The notes under the pieces: model-generated
Databases searched by the model: none
What the model saw: only the letters and a program-made list of their open reading frames with translations
Told to the model about the DNA's origin: nothing
Part shown: positions 3,758-17,848 of the stretch, in pieces
How the letters are laid out: every line of letters begins with the position of its first letter
How positions within the stretch are numbered: position 1 is the stretch's first letter
Translations under genes and position numbers: made by a program
From: Acidimicrobiia bacterium
GTDB lineage: Bacteria > Actinomycetota > Acidimicrobiia > Acidimicrobiales > Poriferisodalaceae
Reading direction: 5' to 3'
Assembly (NCBI GenBank): GCA_012960315.1
Contig: DUBN01000004.1
Coordinates: 1 to 43,551, forward strand
DNA: 43,551 nt

Positions 3758-4816
3758 TCAGTGTGTCAGCCTAATTTTTCCAATAGAGCCAGTATCTAAC
3801 GTGCCTATTATCGCGGCATCGTGGTCTGATTCTCTTAGTTCCGCCACGGCATCTAACGCTGCACCTGAATCGCAGGAAAATAGAAGGCCACCAGAAGTTT
3901 GAGCATCGCAAAGGATGATTCGCTCTAGCTGCGAACCGCCTTCTAAATGTGGTTCGAGGAAACTCAGGTTTCTTTCAGTGCCACCGGCCACAAATCCATC
4001 ATCAACTAACTCGCGGACTTTAGGCAGCAGCGGAACGGACGCCGCGTCGATGATCGCGGAAAGTCCGCTAGCCGATGTCATCTCGTGGAGGTGACCGAGT
4101 AAACCGAAACCGGTGACATCTGTCGCCGCTGTTGCGTTAGCGTGATTTGCCGCTGCCGCTGCCGCTTCGTTGAGTCTGGTCATCTCATGGATGGCCTTTG
4201 TGTATGTCTCTTCAAGTGAACCGCCGGTAGTGACTGCATCGACTTTCGATCGTTTCACAGCAGTGGCCAATAGTCCTGTGCCGATGGGCTTGGTTAAGAC
4301 GAGAGCCTGACCTGGCTGACCGCCACCGTTTGTTAAAAGATCTTCAGGGTCAACCTCCCCGATTACCGACATGCCATACATCGGCTCAGGTCCGTCGACG
4401 GTGTGTCCGCCTGCCACGACCCATTCGCCGGCATCAGCGACATGTTGGCCGCCCAAAAGCACTTTGCTCAATAACTCAAGGGGTAATTCGTCTTTGGGCC
4501 AAGCGACCAGATTTAAAGCGAAGAGAGGCTTTCCGCCCATCGCGTACACATCACTGGCGGCATTCGCAGCTGAGATCTGCCCCCAAAGGACGGGATCGTC
4601 AACTATTGGGGTGAAGAAGTCAGCAGTGGCGACTAGAGCCTTGCCTTCGGGCCGCAACCACACAGCAGCGTCATCGCTATTTTCTAACCCAACCAACAAA
4701 TTTTTGTTGTCCGGTTTTGGTAAATGACGCAGCACCTGCGCCAGGTCGCTTGGACCGAGCTTGCAGGCTCAACCAGCGCCGTGGCTGTACTGGGTAAGTC
4801 GAATCAAACTTGTCAC
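3758..4816 (-). CDS. selD: Selenide, water dikinase (selenophosphate synthetase), selenocysteine-containing
   Basis: Makes selenophosphate from selenide and ATP, the selenium donor for Sec-tRNA and selenouridine. The frame open from 4735 lacks the N-terminal catalytic motif, but reading through one TGA at 4771-4769 restores it exactly: from a GTG at 4816 the protein begins MTSLIRLTQYSHGAG, then U16, then ACK. E. coli SelD has LTQYSHGAGCGCK there, so Sec sits at the catalytic Cys17 position and the essential Lys is K19. Downstream follow the glycine-rich and Asp motifs (DDAAVW, TADFFTPIVDDP, AMGGKPLFALN) and the full C-terminal domain, 352 aa in total. The start lies 42 bp below the nucleoside hydrolase stop. 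The Shine-Dalgarno is weak, so the exact start is less sure than the readthrough. Sec-containing SelD proteins are known in other bacteria. Confidence 0.93.
4740..4771 (-). promoter_or_regulatory. In-frame Sec UGA codon and candidate bacterial SECIS of selD
   Basis: The UGA is at 4771-4769. Counting its U as 1, nucleotides 12-19 pair with 25-32: G12-C32, C13-G31, U14-G30 wobble, one C15/U29 mismatch, then G16-C28, G17-C27, U18-A26, C19-G25, closing a five-base loop CAAGC at 20-24. Known bacterial SECIS hairpins lie inside the coding region directly after the UGA, with the apical loop at about this distance. The pairing was done by eye, without an energy calculation. Confidence 0.7.
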
Positions 4817-9398: not shown

Positions 9399-10532
9399 TC
9401 AATCTCGCCGATAGCGGTGGGGGACAAAAGGAAGTTTCGTGACTTGACAAGGAACGTCTTTTCCTCGAACATCAGCGACCAACAAAGTGCCTGTCTTTGC
9501 GTGCCGGGCGTCGACGTACCCCATGGCGACAGGTTGGTTGCACGTGGGTCCGTAGCCGCCGCTTGTGATGATTCCCACTTGGTTATTTTCTTCTGATCTG
9601 AGTTTTGCCCCTTCGCGAATTGGGCGTTTAGTGAGGGCCGAAACTCCCACTCTCATTCGTTCGGGCCCTGAGGAAAGTTGACCCAAGATTGTGTCTGCGC
9701 CGGCAAATGAGGCTTCGCTTCTCCGGCGTTCTTGAATAGTCCAAGCGAGCCCTGCTTCGACGGGTGTCGTACCCTCATCCAACTCGTGGCCGTAAAGACA
9801 CAAACCCGCCTCCAGGCGCAAACTATCCCTCGCTCCGAGGCCGCATGGAAGGACTCGATCGTCTTCTAAAAGTTGCTCTGCGATACGTCCAGCACTGCTC
9901 GCGGGGACAACCAGTTCAAAACCGTCTTCACCGGTGTAGCCACTGCGGCTGATATCGCACACGATGTCATCCAAACGGAATTCGCGTCGCTGCATGAATT
10001 TCAGTTCAGCTATGTCGCTGAAGAGCATTGAGAGCACTTCGCAAGATTTGGGTCCCTGGACAGCTAATTGCGCCAGATCCTCACGAACTTCGATCCTTAC
10101 GTTGGTGGAAATGTTCCGCTCGATATAGGCGAGATCATCAGCCGTTCGTGAAGCATTCAGTACGAGACGAAGCCGATCGTCATGTCGACTGACAATCAAG
10201 TCGTCAACTACACCGCCTTCGTTGTTGGTTAACAGGCCATATCGCAGTCGTTCGTTTCCGAGATCAGATATTGACGCCGGTGTTATTTTCTCGAAGCTGT
10301 CCATCACTGCGCCGAGCCCGTAGCCGCGCATCGGTATCAGATCGACGATTCCCATGTGGCTGACGTCGAAAAGCCCTGCAAGCGTTCTTGTTGCGTGATG
10401 CTCACTGATTACCCCGTCAAAATTAAGAGGCAACTCAAAGCCCGCGAAAGCAACCATCCTGGCTCCATGACCACGATGAAAACTGTCAAGGGGGCTTTGC
10501 TTGAGATGTTCAGATTGGGAAGCTTCAGTCAT
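9399..10532 (-). CDS. gcvT: Glycine cleavage system aminomethyltransferase, T protein
   Basis: Transfers the aminomethyl carbon from H protein to tetrahydrofolate, giving 5,10-methylene-THF and ammonia. The 377-aa protein shows the hallmark N-terminal LDSFHRGHGARMVAFAGFE-type start, GLFDVSHMG, the folate-binding YTGEDGFEL segment, GLGARDSLRLEAGLCLYGHEL, and the C-terminal ITSGGYGP/AMGYV barrel. All are normal, and the length is close to E. coli GcvT. It is the first gene after the tandem glycine riboswitch, with the ATG about 30 bases beyond the second aptamer, so the riboswitch most likely controls gcvT-gcvP and perhaps the genes beyond. Confidence 0.97.
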   Translation of the reverse strand: MTEASQSEHLKQSPLDSFHRGHGARMVAFAGFELPLNFDGVISEHHATRTLAGLFDVSHMGIVDLIPMRGYGLGAVMDSFEKITPASISDLGNERLRYGLLTNNEGGVVDDLIVSRHDDRLRLVLNASRTADDLAYIERNISTNVRIEVREDLAQLAVQGPKSCEVLSMLFSDIAELKFMQRREFRLDDIVCDISRSGYTGEDGFELVVPASSAGRIAEQLLEDDRVLPCGLGARDSLRLEAGLCLYGHELDEGTTPVEAGLAWTIQERRRSEASFAGADTILGQLSSGPERMRVGVSALTKRPIREGAKLRSEENNQVGIITSGGYGPTCNQPVAMGYVDARHAKTGTLLVADVRGKDVPCQVTKLPFVPHRYRRD

Positions 10533-10561: not shown

Positions 10562-10760
10562 CCCGCGCTGTCGTGGAACCTGAGAGATTGGCCGCTTATC
10601 GCAGTTTTCCCCTTCGGTGGAGAGGCGCCAAAGCCCCCTCGCTTTCCAGCGTTGCTTCTTCCCTGCGGTCCTGGGGCCTGAGAGTTTCCCGGGGCGGTTG
10701 CTCCTTCGGCGCCGACCAGATGAGGCATACAAACCAGTCGAACTCTCCCACTGGGCTTTA
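10562..10760 (-). ncRNA. Tandem glycine riboswitch upstream of gcvT-gcvP
   Basis: Two consecutive glycine aptamers are visible on the minus strand in the gcvT leader. Aptamer 1 (about 10757-10665) contains GGGAGAG, then GGCGCCGAAGGAGCAA, then AAACTCTCAGGC. Aptamer 2 (about 10640-10562) contains CTGGAAAGCGAG, GGCGCC, ACCGAAGGGG and AATCTCTCAGG. These are the conserved core blocks of the family and appear in the correct order twice, joined by a short linker. Tandem glycine riboswitches usually switch on glycine cleavage genes when glycine is high; whether this one acts on transcription or translation is not evident. Edges are approximate to about 10 bases. Confidence 0.93.
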
Positions 10761-10841: not shown

Positions 10842-11198
10842 CTACCCTAGGAACTCAACAATCCGACCTTTGGGACGTCCGATGATTGCCTTGTCGGACC
10901 TTACGAGCACAGGGCGTTGCATCAACGCCTTACGTTCAACCAGCAGATCTATTACGGCTTGTGGATTGCCGACGTACTCCTCCGGGTTTAACCCGAGTTC
11001 TTTAAATTTGGAGTCTTTCCGCACGAGGTCTTCAACTGGATCCTCAAGAAGAGACACGATCGTTTCCAAAGTCGCGCGATCAGGAGGTGTCTTCATGTAG
11101 AGGACAACTTCGGCTCGCACATTTTGCTCCTCAGCGACCGCCAAGGCATTCTTCGATGACCCTCAATGGGGATTGTGATAAATCGTAACGTCAGCCAC
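10842..11198 (-). CDS. arsC: Arsenate reductase (glutaredoxin type) with selenocysteine at the catalytic position
   Basis: ArsC/Spx-family thioredoxin-fold protein of 118 aa if one TGA (11165-11163) is read as Sec. From a GTG at 11198, preceded by GAGGAG at a five-base spacing, it reads MADVTIYHNPH, U12, GSSKNAL. The plasmid R773 enzyme has MSNITIYHNPA-C12-GTSRNTL, so the match is co-linear to the residue and Sec replaces the nucleophilic cysteine that attacks arsenate. The arsenate-binding arginines are also kept: R60, R95 (LMQRP) and R108 (IGRP). Without readthrough, only a 100-aa remnant lacking the active site would be called. It lies 33 bp downstream of a crotonase and upstream of the glycine riboswitch; no arsR, acr3 or arsB is near, so arsenic may not be its only substrate. 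The electron donor is unknown; mycothiol or mycoredoxin is plausible. Confidence 0.9.
11136..11165 (-). promoter_or_regulatory. In-frame Sec UGA codon and candidate bacterial SECIS of arsC
   Basis: The UGA is at 11165-11163. Counting its U as 1, G15-C30 and A16-U29 pair, A17/G28 is a mismatch, then U18-G27 wobble, G19-C26 and C20-G25 close a CUUG tetraloop at 21-24. The apical loop is at the same distance from the UGA as in selD. The stem is short and not strong by eye, so the placement of the UGA at the catalytic residue is better evidence than the hairpin. Confidence 0.5.
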
Positions 11199-11231
11199 TT
11201 TGACTCCTCGGAATTGATCGGTAGGACGGTA

Positions 11232-11984
11232 TCAGCGTTTGAAGCCGCCTTGAATGCGTTCAACCATGTCAGGCGCTGGCCCGGGACCTTTTTCTCGCGC
11301 CCATTTCAAGCCCTCGGCCCGTCCAAACTCGGCGAGAGTTCTCATCTGACGCTTTTCTTCCCTCAATGTGTGCCAAGAGTTCGCGGCGATGAGATCGGCC
11401 CAAGCGATCGTCGCTTCGGACAACTGTTCGCCCGGGAGAGAACTGTTTGCTAAACCAATTTGGGCAGCTTCATGGCCATCCACGACCCTTCCGCTGTACA
11501 TCATGTCTCGAGCGATGAGCGGCCCAACTCGCTCAGGGAGCCTGCTGGTCATACCCCAAGTGGGTACCATTCCCCATTTCCCGTGGGTGTCACAAAAGCG
11601 TGCGTCATCGGCGCATATAAGAAGATCGCAAGCTAGAGCGAGTTCTAATGCGCCGGTGTAACAGTGACCCTTTACCGAAGCGATAACTGGCTGGGGCATT
11701 GCTTCAATGAGATCAAGAGTTTCTGCCTGTTGATGAGGAGTACTTGCGTGTTCGCCGCGCTCAATTGCCTTTAAATCATTCCCCGCTGAGAACGAACGGC
11801 CTTCGCCCGTCAAAATTACGACACCTACTTCACTCGAATTAGCGGCGAGCTGATCCAAGTGAGATCGAAGTTCCGCAAACATTAAAGGACTAAGGGCATT
11901 TAGAGCTTCGGGGCGGTTAAGAGTGAGTGTGCTCACTCCGTTGCGGTCACTACGTAGAACCAGTGGATTGTCGGGCTCATTCAT
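11232..11984 (-). CDS. Enoyl-CoA hydratase/isomerase family protein
   Basis: Crotonase-fold protein of 250 aa. Seen: the LNRPEALNALS start, GEGRSFSAGNDLKA forming the first half of the oxyanion hole, and KGHCYTGALELALACDLL forming the second. The segment that usually carries the catalytic glutamate (PExxLG) is replaced here by THGKWGMVPTWG, a pattern shared by a subset of actinobacterial EchA-type proteins, so simple hydratase activity is not assured. It starts 33 bp after serB and ends 33 bp before arsC, suggesting a serB, crotonase, arsC transcription unit. The CoA substrate is unknown. Confidence 0.88.
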   Translation of the reverse strand: MNEPDNPLVLRSDRNGVSTLTLNRPEALNALSPLMFAELRSHLDQLAANSSEVGVVILTGEGRSFSAGNDLKAIERGEHASTPHQQAETLDLIEAMPQPVIASVKGHCYTGALELALACDLLICADDARFCDTHGKWGMVPTWGMTSRLPERVGPLIARDMMYSGRVVDGHEAAQIGLANSSLPGEQLSEATIAWADLIAANSWHTLREEKRQMRTLAEFGRAEGLKWAREKGPGPAPDMVERIQGGFKR

Positions 11985-12017: not shown

Positions 12018-13217
12018 TCAGTCAGTGTGCAAATCGCCCGGAGCGTCGGAAGCATCGGCCGCCTCAACTTCTTCACGGGTGACTCCAAGCATGAACAATA
12101 TTGCATCGAGATAAGGAACATTTACTGCGGTATCAGCTGCTCCGCGAAGTACTGGCTTCGCGTTGAATGCAATCCCCAGACCAGCTTTTTGCAACATCGG
12201 GAGATCATTAGCGCCGTCTCCAACTGCCACGGTTTGCTCCAGCGGCACCCCTTCGGCTTCGGCGATTGTTTCAAGCAACCTTGCCTTGGTTTGAGCGTCG
12301 ACGATTTCGCCTTCAATTCGGCCCGTGATGACCCCATCAATGATTTCAAGACGGTTGGCGTGAGCATGATCTAATTTGAGTTCCTTGGCGAGTTCGTCAG
12401 TAAAATGGGTAAAGCCACCGCTGATGATTGCTATGCGATAGCCGAGCCTTCTGAGCGTTCGCACGAATGTTCTCGCTCCGGGCGTGAGGACCATTCGCGC
12501 GATCGCCCGATCGATTGCCGCAGCGCTGGTGCCCTGCAAAAGTGCGACACGTTTCTTGAGAGCCTCGGAGTAATCAAGGTCGCCCCTCATCGCGAGGTCT
12601 GTCAATCGGGCGACTTCCTCTCGGTGCCCCGCTTCGTCAGCCAAAAGCTCAATCATTTCATTTCGGATCAGTGTGGAATCCACGTCAAGAACCACTAGGC
12701 GGCTTGACCGACGTGACAATCCGTGAGGTTGTACAGCGATGTCGATCGACTCTTCGGCAGCGACGTCCATTAGTGCCGCCTGCAGCTTGTCCGAATCCCC
12801 GCCCTCGACCAGGAATTCGTAGCTCCAGACTGGAAAACGCGAAAGTCTGTGTATTCGATCTATGTTGCCCCCGTTTGCGGCAATAGCTCCACTTGTTCGA
12901 GCTAATGCTTCGGGCGAAAGCTCAGGACCCAGAACGGTGACTACCTGGCGTCGCGCATGCCGCGTCGGCGTCGCATCAACAATTTCGAAATCGATGTCGA
13001 GACCTCGCTCCCATCCAAATAGCAGGACCTCTTTAACCAGATCTCTCCCGGTCGGAGCAACAACGGCGAGCCCCAAGGTCAACTGACGCCTGACCACCAC
13101 TTGCTCCATGTCTTGGAGTTCCGAACCCAGGCTCGCCAGCAAACCTAAGAGGTCACTGGTGATGCCCGGGCGGTCAACGCCGGTCACACGTATGAGAATG
13201 GTCTGGGGGGAGGCCAT
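12018..13217 (-). CDS. serB: Phosphoserine phosphatase with N-terminal ACT domains
   Basis: Last step of serine synthesis, hydrolysing O-phosphoserine to serine. The 399-aa protein has two ACT-type regulatory domains (about residues 5-80 and 90-165; VTGVDRPGITSDLLG is a clear ACT start) followed by a HAD phosphatase domain. HAD motif I is D178-V-D180-ST with the nucleophile D178, motif II is the IISGGF serine, and motif IV is VGDGANDLPML. This architecture matches mycobacterial SerB2, in which ACT domains bind amino acids. It is the first gene of the minus-strand run; the 225 bp upstream separates it from the divergent molybdoenzyme genes. Serine is also the precursor of selenocysteine, which fits the gene company. 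Confidence 0.96.
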   Translation of the reverse strand: MASPQTILIRVTGVDRPGITSDLLGLLASLGSELQDMEQVVVRRQLTLGLAVVAPTGRDLVKEVLLFGWERGLDIDFEIVDATPTRHARRQVVTVLGPELSPEALARTSGAIAANGGNIDRIHRLSRFPVWSYEFLVEGGDSDKLQAALMDVAAEESIDIAVQPHGLSRRSSRLVVLDVDSTLIRNEMIELLADEAGHREEVARLTDLAMRGDLDYSEALKKRVALLQGTSAAAIDRAIARMVLTPGARTFVRTLRRLGYRIAIISGGFTHFTDELAKELKLDHAHANRLEIIDGVITGRIEGEIVDAQTKARLLETIAEAEGVPLEQTVAVGDGANDLPMLQKAGLGIAFNAKPVLRGAADTAVNVPYLDAILFMLGVTREEVEAADASDAPGDLHTD

Positions 13218-13442: not shown

Positions 13443-14957
13443 GTGACTCGGCTGGGGTTCCTTCTCGATAGCGAGACATGCATTGGATGTCACGCTTGTA
13501 CGGTCGCGTGTAAAAGCGAACACGACGTGCCGCTGGGGGTAAACCGGACCTGGGTTAAATACATAGAGACGGGTGAATTCCCAGATACCACTCGCCATTT
13601 CTCGGTGATGCGTTGCAACCAATGTGAGGATGCGCCGTGTATGGAGATTTGTCCGACGTCCGCTTTATTTCGAGCATCCAATGGTGTGGTGGATTTTGAC
13701 GACAACAACTGCATTGGTTGTAAGGGCTGCATGAATGCTTGCCCATACGATGCGATTTACATTAACCCAGAGACCAATACCGCTAACAAGTGCAATTTCT
13801 GTAACCACCGAATTGAGGTGGGCTTGGAACCGTCCTGCGTAGTCGTGTGCCCGACCCATTCGATCAAGGTGATCGATTTCGATGATGCCGATAACGATGC
13901 GCGACGGATTGTGGATAGAGAAGACTTGCCGGTTCGGTCTCCAGAGCAGGGAACGGTCCCCAAGGTTTTCTACCGAGGCGCCAACGAAGCTTCACTTGAT
14001 CCTCTCCTAACGGCCATCCCCGACGATGGGCTTATTTGGGCCGATGTCACCCTCCAACACCCCACACCACCAACCCGAGAACCAGATCTTGTAGGTCGCA
14101 CGACATACACGACGGCCCATGCGACAGCTTGGAAAACCAAAGTTTCGGGATATCTAGTTACGAAGGCAGTTGCAGCAGGCATCATGCTTCTGGCCGCTCT
14201 GATGGTGCTGCTTGGCGAGGCGGATCAGATAACGACAGTCGGGTTCGTGCCGGCGGCGATCGCCGTTTTCTTTGTGTCTGTTACGGGCGCCCTTTTGGTG
14301 GCGGATTTAAAGAAGCCTTCCCGGTTCCTTCTTGTGCTGACTCATGGGAACTGGTCCAGCTGGTTAGTACGAGGTGCTTACATTCTTGGACTTTACGCGC
14401 TCTTGCTCGGAGGGTGGCTGTTGGCGGCATTGCTTGAGTCACCTCAAATGCTTAGGCTTCTGGCCTTACCAATTGCTGTAGTTGCGGCAAGCACCGCCGG
14501 GTACACAGCGTTTCTATTCGCTCAATGCGATGGCCGCGACCTGTGGCAGAGTCAACTGCTTTTACCTACGCTGCTTGTTCAAGCTGTCGCTGCGGGCGGT
14601 TCAGGCTGGTTCATAGCGGACCTATTCGTCGACATGCCTGAATTGCAGGTGGTGCGCGGGATAACCATCGCTGCCCTGGTCGCGAACGGCCTCTTAGTGG
14701 TGCTTGAGATTTCGGGTGATCATTCTCGACATGTCGCCCTAGCGGTGCATTCCATGACACAGGGTGATCAAAGAACACTTTTCTTGACGGGGATGGTCGG
14801 AGGATTGGTCCTACCCGTTATTTTGCTGACCATCAGCGTGATTGTTGACAGCCAAGCATCGCCACTTTCTTGTGTCGCTGGGGTATTGATCCTAGGCGGA
14901 ATGTGGGCGTACGAAGATAGCTATGTACAAGCTGGCCAATCGGTTCCCCTGTCCTAG
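13443..14957 (+). CDS. Fused 4x[4Fe-4S] electron-transfer and DmsC/NrfD-like membrane anchor subunit
   Basis: 504-aa fusion. Residues 1-160 are a DmsB/NrfC-type ferredoxin with sixteen cysteines in four groups (13, 16, 19, 23; 58, 61, 66, 70; 90, 93, 96, 100; 117, 120, 132, 136), enough for four [4Fe-4S] clusters. After a linker, residues from about 237 to the end contain eight hydrophobic segments of membrane-helix length, resembling the DmsC/NrfD quinol-binding anchors. These are usually two separate proteins. The gene starts at GTG with a strong AAGGAGG four to five bases before it, and is followed after eight bases by the catalytic subunit. It should pass electrons between the quinone pool and the molybdenum site. 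Confidence 0.92.
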   Translation: MTRLGFLLDSETCIGCHACTVACKSEHDVPLGVNRTWVKYIETGEFPDTTRHFSVMRCNQCEDAPCMEICPTSALFRASNGVVDFDDNNCIGCKGCMNACPYDAIYINPETNTANKCNFCNHRIEVGLEPSCVVVCPTHSIKVIDFDDADNDARRIVDREDLPVRSPEQGTVPKVFYRGANEASLDPLLTAIPDDGLIWADVTLQHPTPPTREPDLVGRTTYTTAHATAWKTKVSGYLVTKAVAAGIMLLAALMVLLGEADQITTVGFVPAAIAVFFVSVTGALLVADLKKPSRFLLVLTHGNWSSWLVRGAYILGLYALLLGGWLLAALLESPQMLRLLALPIAVVAASTAGYTAFLFAQCDGRDLWQSQLLLPTLLVQAVAAGGSGWFIADLFVDMPELQVVRGITIAALVANGLLVVLEISGDHSRHVALAVHSMTQGDQRTLFLTGMVGGLVLPVILLTISVIVDSQASPLSCVAGVLILGGMWAYEDSYVQAGQSVPLS

Positions 14958-14965
14958 GAGGGTTG

Positions 14966-17848
14966 ATGTCTAACTCGGATGATTCTCGATATTTAGATGA
15001 GGAAAGTTTCTACAAGGATGCCACCTCGAACGCTGGCCTCACTAACTACCCCCCACACGACCAGTGGCACGACTGGACGGAGTTGGATGCCAAAGCTTGG
15101 CCGCGCCGAGTGGAACGGCATTTTCGCCTTATTCCCACCACATGTTTTAACTGCGAAGCAGCATGTGGACTAGTTGCCTATGTGGATCGCGAGACAGGTG
15201 AGATTGCCAAATTTGAAGGCAATCCTGAACATCCGGCGTCGAGAGGAAGGAATTGTGCGAAGGGCCCCGCGACTCTTAATCAGGTAAACGATCCCGAACG
15301 CATCCTGTTTCCCTTGAAACGGGTCGGTGAGCGTGGTGGGGGCGAGTGGGAACGAATCACGTGGGAGCAGGCGCTGGATGAAATCGGAGCGCGCATCCGA
15401 ACCGCACTTGTTGAAGACCGACGTGACGAGATCATGTATCACGTTGGACGGCCGGGCGAAGATGGCTATACCGAGCGGGTGCTCCAGGGTTGGGGGATCG
15501 ACGGCCATAACAGTCACACCAATATCTGTTCCTCTAACGCCCGAATTGGTTATCAGTCCTGGATGGGTCACGATCGGCCCTCCTCGGATTACGCCAACGC
15601 TGAAGTGATTTTCTTGATCTCGTCTCATCTTGAAGCGGGTCATTATTTCAATCCACATGCGCAGCGAATCATTGAAGCCCAGGAAAGAGGAGCGACTGTC
15701 ATATGTGTGGACCCTCGCTTATCTAATACCGGTTCAAAAGCAGATCATTGGCTACCGGCTTGGCCCGGAACAGAACCATTTCTTCTTTTAGCTCTTGCCA
15801 AACTCTTGCTGGAGAACGGTACGTGGGAGCGCGAATTCATGCGGAGGTGGACTAATTGGGAAACGTACCTCACTGAAACACGTCCTGACCTGGATATTGA
15901 GTTTGAATCGTTAGAGAGGGCGCTGCTTGACCAATACGCTGAATACACGCCCGAACGAGCGGAATACATAACTGGAGTACCGGCCGAGGAGATAAGGGAG
16001 ATTGCGTCAATAATTGGCGCTCATCCCACGAAGTTCGCTTCCCACAATTGGCGTGCCGCAGGTGCTGGCAACCTCGGTGGATGGCAGACAGCGCGTTGTT
16101 TGTTCTTCCTTAACGTACTCACTGGCTCAGTCGGCACTGAGGGCGGAACAAGCGGTAACGGATGGAATAAATTTAAACCTCACGCTCCCTTGGGAACTCA
16201 AAAAATCGAACACTGGAATGAGATGTCGTGGCCACGCGAATACCCGCTGAGCTATCACGAGATGTCAATCCTTCTGCCACATTTCTTGAACGAAGGCCGC
16301 GGCAAATTAGATACGTATTTCACTCGCGTGTACAACCCTGTTTGGACTAATCCAGATGGGTTCAGCTGGATGGAAGCTCTCCTCGACCCCTCCAAAGTTG
16401 AGTGCCATGTTGCTCTCACTCCAACCTGGTCGGAAACGGCCATATTTGCCGACTACGTGCTTCCCATGGGCGTCGGCTCAGAGCGCCACGATCTAGCTTC
16501 CTTTGAGACTCATGCTGGACGGTGGATTGGGTTTCGACAACCCGTCATGCGCCGCTTCGCTGAGCTTGAAGGTAAGTCGATAGGCAAAGATTCTCGCACC
16601 CATGAGTTCAATCCTGGTGAGGTTTGGGAAGAAAACGAGTTCTGGATAGATCTTTCTTGGCGGATAGACCCTGATGGAGAGCTCGGAATTAGGGAGCACT
16701 TCGAGAGCCGGTCAGAACCGGGTCAACCAATGACTGTCGACGAGTATTACGGCCTCATTTTCAGTGAAGAAGTACCTGGGCTTTCAGAGGCGGCCACTGC
16801 GGCTGAGCAAACTCCTCTCGAGTTCATGCGTGACAGGGGCGCTTTCGCCATCCCTACGGACCCATACGTACCGTACGAACGTACGGTCGATCCTGCATCT
16901 GTCCAAGATTGTTTGAGAGACGAGACAGGCGTGTTCAGAAAACCTGGGACTGCCGGAGTATTTGATGGCTCCCCAGAATCGTTTGCGGAAACGGTGCTGG
17001 CACCTTTAGGGGATGGTTCGCCGGCAGTGGAAATCGATGGTGAAATCAAAGAAGGATTTCCGACGCCGTCAAAAAAATTGGAACTGTATTCGACGACGTT
17101 GGCTGAATGGGGTTGGCCTGAATACGCCACCCCAACATGGATTCCGAGCCATGTCCATTGGGAGGATCTTGATCTTGAAGGTGATGAGCGAATTCTTTTG
17201 CCGACGTTTCGGATACCAACTCTCATCCACACACGGTCGGCTAATTCGAAATGGCTTAATGAGATCAGCCACCGTCACCCTCTGTGGATTCATCCCGAGG
17301 ATGCTGAAAAGTTAGAAATTGGAGTAAACGAATTAGTTCGCATCACCACTCGTCTTGGGCATTTCGTCATACAAGCATGGCGTACAGAGGGGATTCGCCC
17401 CGGTGTCGTCGCCGCCTCCCATCACATGGGGCGTTGGCGAATGGGGAAAGAGCAGGGGCGGTCGTGGGGTAACGCGCAGGCTGACATAGAAAACGACGGC
17501 TCTACGTGGAAATTGAGTCGGAGCGAAGGCATGGGCCCGTATAGATCTGAGGACCCTGACAGCGAAAGGATTTGGTGGAATGACACCGGTGTCCATCAAA
17601 ATCTCACCTTCGCCGTGCAGCCAGACCCCATATCGGGGATGCAATGCTGGCATCAACGGGTTCGTGTAACGCCCGCCGAGGAAGGCGACTCTTACGGGGA
17701 TGTCGTTGTCGACACGGCTAAATCGCGCGCTGCATACTCGGAATGGCTTGCGAAGACGAGGCCAGCACCTGGGCCGCACGGGCTTCGCCGTCCGCTTTGG
17801 TATGCGCGCCCACTGAAACCCACAGCCGAGGCCTATCGTCTTTCTTGA
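14966..17848 (+). CDS. Molybdopterin oxidoreductase catalytic subunit (DMSO reductase family)
   Basis: Large Mo/W-bis-MGD enzyme of 960 aa. The N-terminal [4Fe-4S] site is C60-xx-C63-xxx-C67 (CFNCEAACG) with C97 in RNCAKG. A likely metal-ligand cysteine is C188 (HTNICSSNAR), a position where formate dehydrogenases have Sec or Cys. Later segments include CVDPRLSNTGSKADHWLP, FADYVLPMG and a C-terminal MopB domain (GVVAASHHMGRW). There is no twin-arginine signal, so it probably works on the cytoplasmic side. The ATG has AGGAGGG five bases upstream. It forms a two-gene unit with the fused iron-sulfur/anchor subunit. The substrate is undetermined; a sulfur oxyanion or polysulfide is possible, as are others. 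Confidence 0.92.
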   Translation: MSNSDDSRYLDEESFYKDATSNAGLTNYPPHDQWHDWTELDAKAWPRRVERHFRLIPTTCFNCEAACGLVAYVDRETGEIAKFEGNPEHPASRGRNCAKGPATLNQVNDPERILFPLKRVGERGGGEWERITWEQALDEIGARIRTALVEDRRDEIMYHVGRPGEDGYTERVLQGWGIDGHNSHTNICSSNARIGYQSWMGHDRPSSDYANAEVIFLISSHLEAGHYFNPHAQRIIEAQERGATVICVDPRLSNTGSKADHWLPAWPGTEPFLLLALAKLLLENGTWEREFMRRWTNWETYLTETRPDLDIEFESLERALLDQYAEYTPERAEYITGVPAEEIREIASIIGAHPTKFASHNWRAAGAGNLGGWQTARCLFFLNVLTGSVGTEGGTSGNGWNKFKPHAPLGTQKIEHWNEMSWPREYPLSYHEMSILLPHFLNEGRGKLDTYFTRVYNPVWTNPDGFSWMEALLDPSKVECHVALTPTWSETAIFADYVLPMGVGSERHDLASFETHAGRWIGFRQPVMRRFAELEGKSIGKDSRTHEFNPGEVWEENEFWIDLSWRIDPDGELGIREHFESRSEPGQPMTVDEYYGLIFSEEVPGLSEAATAAEQTPLEFMRDRGAFAIPTDPYVPYERTVDPASVQDCLRDETGVFRKPGTAGVFDGSPESFAETVLAPLGDGSPAVEIDGEIKEGFPTPSKKLELYSTTLAEWGWPEYATPTWIPSHVHWEDLDLEGDERILLPTFRIPTLIHTRSANSKWLNEISHRHPLWIHPEDAEKLEIGVNELVRITTRLGHFVIQAWRTEGIRPGVVAASHHMGRWRMGKEQGRSWGNAQADIENDGSTWKLSRSEGMGPYRSEDPDSERIWWNDTGVHQNLTFAVQPDPISGMQCWHQRVRVTPAEEGDSYGDVVVDTAKSRAAYSEWLAKTRPAPGPHGLRRPLWYARPLKPTAEAYRLS

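Follow-up and report, generated by a model that had tools for sequence, protein, structure and literature searches.

An ArsC-family selenoprotein with a conserved SECIS-like hairpin in Acidimicrobiia

A gene of an Acidimicrobiia bacterium (Poriferisodalaceae; assembly GCA_012960315.1) that standard annotation would reduce to a fragment without the catalytic residue encodes, when one in-frame UGA is read as selenocysteine (Sec), a complete ArsC-family selenoprotein; this reading is confirmed at the level of sequence comparison. The product is very probably an R773-type (glutaredoxin-fold) member of the family, with Sec inserted via a hairpin past the UGA and a selenolate that would attack an oxyanion. 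The gene, hereinafter arsC-Sec, belongs to a stretch of 43,551 nucleotides (contig DUBN01000004.1, positions 1 to 43,551), the whole of which we call the window (Table 1).

Table 1. Features of the window discussed in the text
Feature	Positions	Strand	Basis
arsC-Sec, ArsC-family selenoprotein, 118 aa, GTG start, TAG stop	10842..11198	-	translation, family profiles, R773 alignment
In-frame TGA (Sec12, replacing catalytic Cys12)	11163..11165	-	translation, relatives, R773 alignment
Ribosome-binding site GAGGAG, 5 nt ahead of GTG	11204..11209	-	read from sequence
SECIS-like hairpin, 7-bp stem, loop GGUC at 11136-11139, 16 nt past UGA	11129..11146	-	folding, synonymous-site tests
Glycine riboswitch between arsC-Sec and gcvT, belonging to gcv genes	10656..10760	-	Rfam
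gcvT, downstream neighbour	9399..10532	-	Pfam
Enoyl-CoA hydratase/isomerase family, upstream neighbour	11232..11984	-	Pfam
SerB-like phosphatase with ACT domains, further upstream (SerB name is an interpretation)	12018..13217	-	HAD and ACT domains
selD, selenophosphate synthetase, Sec at residue 16 (TGA 4769-4771) in GAGUACKLGP; start approximate	3758..4816	-	profile match, translation

The arsC-Sec gene and its product

Translated with TGA as Sec, the arsC-Sec frame contains a single TGA, at residue 12, and then runs to TAG; table 11 alone yields a 100-aa ORF with a TTG start at 11144. The initial annotation had proposed that reading through the TGA restores a complete ArsC of 118 aa from this fragment, and the extended protein indeed matches the Pfam ArsC family over residues 7-116 with 53 bits (gathering score 24); the genome has no other PF03960 match. 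The model for glutaredoxin-type arsenate reductases, TIGR00014, scores 99.1 bits when Cys is substituted for Sec, slightly under its equivalog cut-off of 106.05, compared with the weaker 50.4 and 34.6 bits of the Spx and MgsR models. The nearest solved structures are likewise arsenate reductases, including the R773 enzyme, ahead of Spx.

In the alignment with R773 ArsC (1i9d), Sec12 falls on C12, the catalytic residue, and R60/R95/R108 fall on R60/R94/R107, the arsenate-binding residues; the match to Cys12 and the conservation of the three arginines had been proposed from the sequence of the gene. The three arginines are invariant in the 93 distinct Sec forms that we collected. Of the traits of the TIGR00014 equivalog, the arginine pattern is present and the score is not reached; arsenate reduction is, on this model, a prediction. 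The UxxS motif is U12-G-S-S15, with S15 in 91 of the 93 Sec forms and H8 also in 91; a second Cys is absent from the aligned part of 88 of the 93, and the window protein itself has Sec only. The ribosome-binding site noted previously is in place and is retained in part among relatives.

Sec and Cys forms among relatives

Matches to ArsC were found in 53 of 61 related genomes (that of the window included) and, within the family to which the window belongs, in 35 of 37, where every best match has one internal TGA; codon-level reading of 30 loci of this family placed it at residue 12 in all of them. Among the loci from named genomes, of which the best 80 of 291 were kept, codon 12 is TGA in 61 and TGC or TGT in 19. 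Combined, these 110 loci comprise 91 with TGA and 19 with Cys at this position, the Sec/Cys pairs that the initial annotation had suggested looking for. Hosts of the TGA forms are Acidimicrobiia, other actinobacterial records (including MedAcidi-G3) and six Verrucomicrobiota records. Most of the Cys forms (17 of 19) are more distant, with at most 41% identity; the remaining two, the actinobacterial ones, are L094 and L098. In an enlarged set, 111 TGA loci stand against 39 others, each of which (39/39) has Cys; this ratio is no frequency, as 40 added loci were picked by state (20 uninterrupted, 20 with TGA) and some species are present twice, via both collections.

Two further observations concern this set. 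A second type of Sec-ArsC, with NPG-U-G or a similar motif and other hairpins, is represented by L161, L163-L166 and L168-L171. Several genomes (G013, G088, G125, G153, G161 and G177) carry two TGA-interrupted ArsC copies each.

These comparisons bear on two readings without Sec. A pseudogene or a base-call error, with the TGA as an ordinary nonsense codon, would agree with the 100-aa ORF of table 11, but is extremely improbable: the same TGA is found in 30 of 30 same-family loci, in other families and in a second phylum, and independent assemblies of relatives carry it. Change is largely synonymous on both sides of the TGA, the differences between arsC-Sec and 15 chosen relatives falling mainly at third codon positions, upstream of the TGA too; the association with selA described below also speaks against a nonsense codon. 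Equally hard to credit is a functional protein of 100 aa that begins after the TGA, at the available TTG at 11144, and has no nucleophile. The codons ahead of the TGA are conserved, residue H8 is retained in 91 of the 93 Sec forms, the Cys homologs are full length, and a search for homologs that all start downstream of the TGA found none.

Selenocysteine machinery and its co-occurrence with the TGA

The assembly of the window (2.8 Mb, 91 contigs, 96.55% complete) encodes the Sec machinery that had been named as a test of the reading: selA (395.5 bits, cut-off 267.9) adjoins selB (284.4 bits, cut-off 242.25) on contig C58, tRNA-Sec scores 65.1 bits (gathering score 47), and selD scores 370 bits (cut-off 125). 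By these matches, the genome is equipped to decode Sec. The selD gene is itself a second Sec gene, located in the same window as arsC-Sec.

Across 148 genomes of the order with completeness of at least 85%, 44 have a TGA-interrupted ArsC, 47 an ArsC match without TGA (one with TAG) and 57 none; here, an interrupted ArsC is one with a TGA within the match, the codon position having been read in the fetched loci only. The selA gene is above cut-off in 87 of the 148, including all 44 genomes with the interrupted form, and the interrupted form occurs in none of the 61 genomes without selA; selA is also present in 28 of the 47 with an uninterrupted match. The Fisher p value, which ignores kinship, is 1.5e-13 against all other genomes and 4.6e-7 against genomes with an uninterrupted match.

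We found no evidence in favor of decoding of this UGA as another residue, such as Trp, by near-cognate or altered decoding. The presence of Cys in 39 of 39 non-TGA loci (20 of them picked as uninterrupted), of tRNA-Sec and SelB, and the selA link in 44 of 44 genomes leave this reading a vanishingly small probability. Placement of Sec at the catalytic position, as initially annotated, is thus supported by the machinery, the Sec/Cys pairs, the co-occurrence with selA and the conserved hairpin examined next.

The SECIS-like hairpin

In the GGUC-loop Sec forms, 482 of 490 cells of the hairpin stem are paired, with compensatory changes; of the 92 distinct Sec forms compared, 70 have this loop. Codon choice in these forms is uniform: the loop Val21 is GTC in 70/70, Ala20 is GCG in 67/67 and Glu23 is GAG in 42/42, in contrast to prolines 38 and 39, which use all four codons. 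One stem pair covaries as T-A (43), G-C (21) and C-G (3), together with Leu/Val19 and Glu/Thr23, and the protein residues at positions 19 and 23 appear to follow the RNA pairing.

Stability was evaluated in two ways. At a fixed position, with the criterion that a fraction of at most 0.05 of synonymous recodings be at least as stable as the native hairpin, 54 of 67 distinct Sec forms pass vs 0 of 19 Cys forms, the position having been picked after the folds had been inspected. At least seven of the 13 Sec forms that fail carry another hairpin, CAAUGC-loop-GCAUUG. The laxer, position-free scan is passed by 41 of 86 Sec forms, three of 22 Acidimicrobial Cys forms and two of 17 other Cys forms; the hairpin of arsC-Sec does not pass it (0.23). 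A bacterial SECIS-type hairpin with a G in the loop is found directly after the UGA, as in Sec-ArsC, with weaker results from the position-free scan; the count of codon choices at wobble positions is stronger evidence for a SECIS than the fixed-position stability test. An Rfam search around the gene gave no match at the hairpin, the glycine riboswitch being its sole hit. The hairpin is maintained by constraint on synonymous sites and by compensatory substitutions, as would be expected of a SECIS element, and selection at the RNA level is thereby demonstrated for the predicted SECIS of Sec-ArsC.

Genomic context and arsenic genes

The context of arsC-Sec recurs in the 30 same-family loci (about 3 kb each), where GcvT is near the gene in 27, SerB in 26 and the enoyl-CoA hydratase in 21; gene clustering around more distant loci gave no usable common neighbor. 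The riboswitch, of which one aptamer is above the Rfam threshold, lies directly ahead of gcvT. On the plus strand, at 13443-17848, an Fe-S/NrfD-like protein adjoins a molybdopterin oxidoreductase.

Pfam annotation of ten nearby proteins showed no ars gene, in agreement with the initial annotation. In the genome as a whole, at 96.55% completeness, neither Acr3 nor ArsB, the exporters by which we would recognize an ars resistance operon, has a match at E 0.001 or better, and no ArsM is above cut-off (the best scores 50.3 bits vs 263). Thus, no usual arsenite disposal route was found in the genome, and the doubt voiced early on as to arsenate being the physiological substrate stands.

These absences, along with neighbors of glycine cleavage, enoyl-CoA hydratase and phosphatase type that have no link to arsenic and recur with the gene, are what would be seen if the protein were a real selenoprotein but a general selenol reductase, acting on another oxyanion or on mixed disulfides with a small thiol, rather than an arsenate detoxifier; Spx/YffB-type relatives of ArsC, which are not arsenate reductases, offer a parallel. 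The narrow miss of TIGR00014 and the weak matches of Spx-type models point the same way. Against this stand the three arginines, kept in every distinct Sec form, and the ranking of arsenate reductases ahead of Spx among the solved structures; the argument from absence is further weakened by the scope of the exporter search, which covered Acr3 and ArsB alone. We regard a general selenol reductase as a serious alternative that falls somewhat short of an even chance.

Evolution of the family

A rapidly built tree for 132 distinct proteins (116 columns, residue 12 masked), with 55 of its 129 inner branches unresolved, needs at least five Sec/Cys changes, two of which are forced by well-supported branches, and gives no direction of change. 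The six Verrucomicrobiota forms make up one branch (SH-aLRT 97) within a supported group shared with Acidimicrobiia (97), a placement that fits a transfer from one phylum to the other; contaminated bins are an unlikely source of six separate records. These forms (L063, L065, L072, L073, L075 and L076) have the motif HFNH-U or HYNH-U. L133 is a Cys form placed among Sec forms, and its host, G130, has no selA above cut-off, which would fit reversion of Sec to Cys following loss of the machinery.

Proposed mechanism and substrate

In the mechanism that we favor, SelB and Sec-tRNA would bind the hairpin and insert Sec, giving the 118-aa enzyme, whose selenolate would attack an oxyanion bound by R60, R95 and R108; arsenate is the likeliest candidate. 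The selenium adduct would then be resolved by an outside thiol, which is needed because the protein has no Cys besides Sec. In the R773 enzyme, resolution is by glutathione and glutaredoxin; here, mycothiol and mycoredoxin may take this part, a guess given that the MshC profile reaches 422 bits in the genome vs a cut-off of 485.1. Arsenate as the main substrate is the least certain step, which we hold with slightly better than even confidence on the basis of the sequence.

A broader and more tentative scenario, which we consider conceivable but on the whole doubtful, is that of an old housekeeping selenol reductase in Acidimicrobiia without a role in arsenic resistance. It would have no arsenite exporter to serve; the serB-hydratase-arsC-gcvT order would have become fixed in one family; the gene would have moved with its SECIS from Acidimicrobiia to Verrucomicrobiota; Cys would have been regained where Sec decoding was lost, as perhaps in G130; and mycothiol might replace glutathione in the resolution step.

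Comparison with known systems

The glutaredoxin-dependent ArsC of R773 and its relatives of known structure (1i9d, 1j9b and others) share with the arsC-Sec protein the fold family, the position of the nucleophile, the three arginines and the single-nucleophile layout; they differ in having Cys12 where this protein has Sec, in the ars operon, which is not seen here, and in the use of glutathione, in place of which this bacterium may use mycothiol. The Spx and MgsR regulators belong to a common superfamily, but their models score far lower on arsC-Sec. The arsenate reductase-like UxxC protein (ArsC 2, NF041106), as far as its published description goes, is also a Sec form of an ArsC relative, with UxxC as opposed to the UxxS without second Cys found here.

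Sec-ArsC with UxxS was already published in 2005, and the novelty of the protein, which the initial annotation had implied, is low: the relevant passages of the Sargasso Sea study (Zhang, Fomenko and Gladyshev; PMC1088965) report 14 selenoproteins of the arsenate reductase type that have UxxS and a predicted SECIS, those of the 2008 GOS study (PMC2398784) list ArsC 1, UxxS, with 77 sequences, and the family is tabulated again in PMC9312934 and PMC13188914. The latter, a 2026 review, describes in the part concerned the functions of nearly all such selenoprotein families as largely uncharacterized. Among the papers listed in literature searches on selenoproteins combined with Acidimicrobi, Actinobacteria, Verrucomicrobia or arsenate reductase, we found none assigning Sec-ArsC to Acidimicrobiia. 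What is added here is a well-defined host group, so that a family from environmental sequences gains named hosts; the Sec and Cys versions found among close relatives that either have or lack selA form a clean test set for the question why a single-nucleophile enzyme retains Sec.

The arsC-Sec protein has all the traits of the published ArsC 1: a UGA at the Cys12 position, UxxS, Sec/Cys pairs, a SECIS-type hairpin and Sec machinery. According to the passages cited (PMC1088965, PMC2398784), the two are alike in belonging to COG1393/pfam03960, in the Sec nucleophile within UxxS and in the predicted bacterial SECIS past the UGA; the published sequences are environmental fragments, with the organism not given in those passages, whereas the gene described here comes with a known host genome, Sec machinery and set of relatives.
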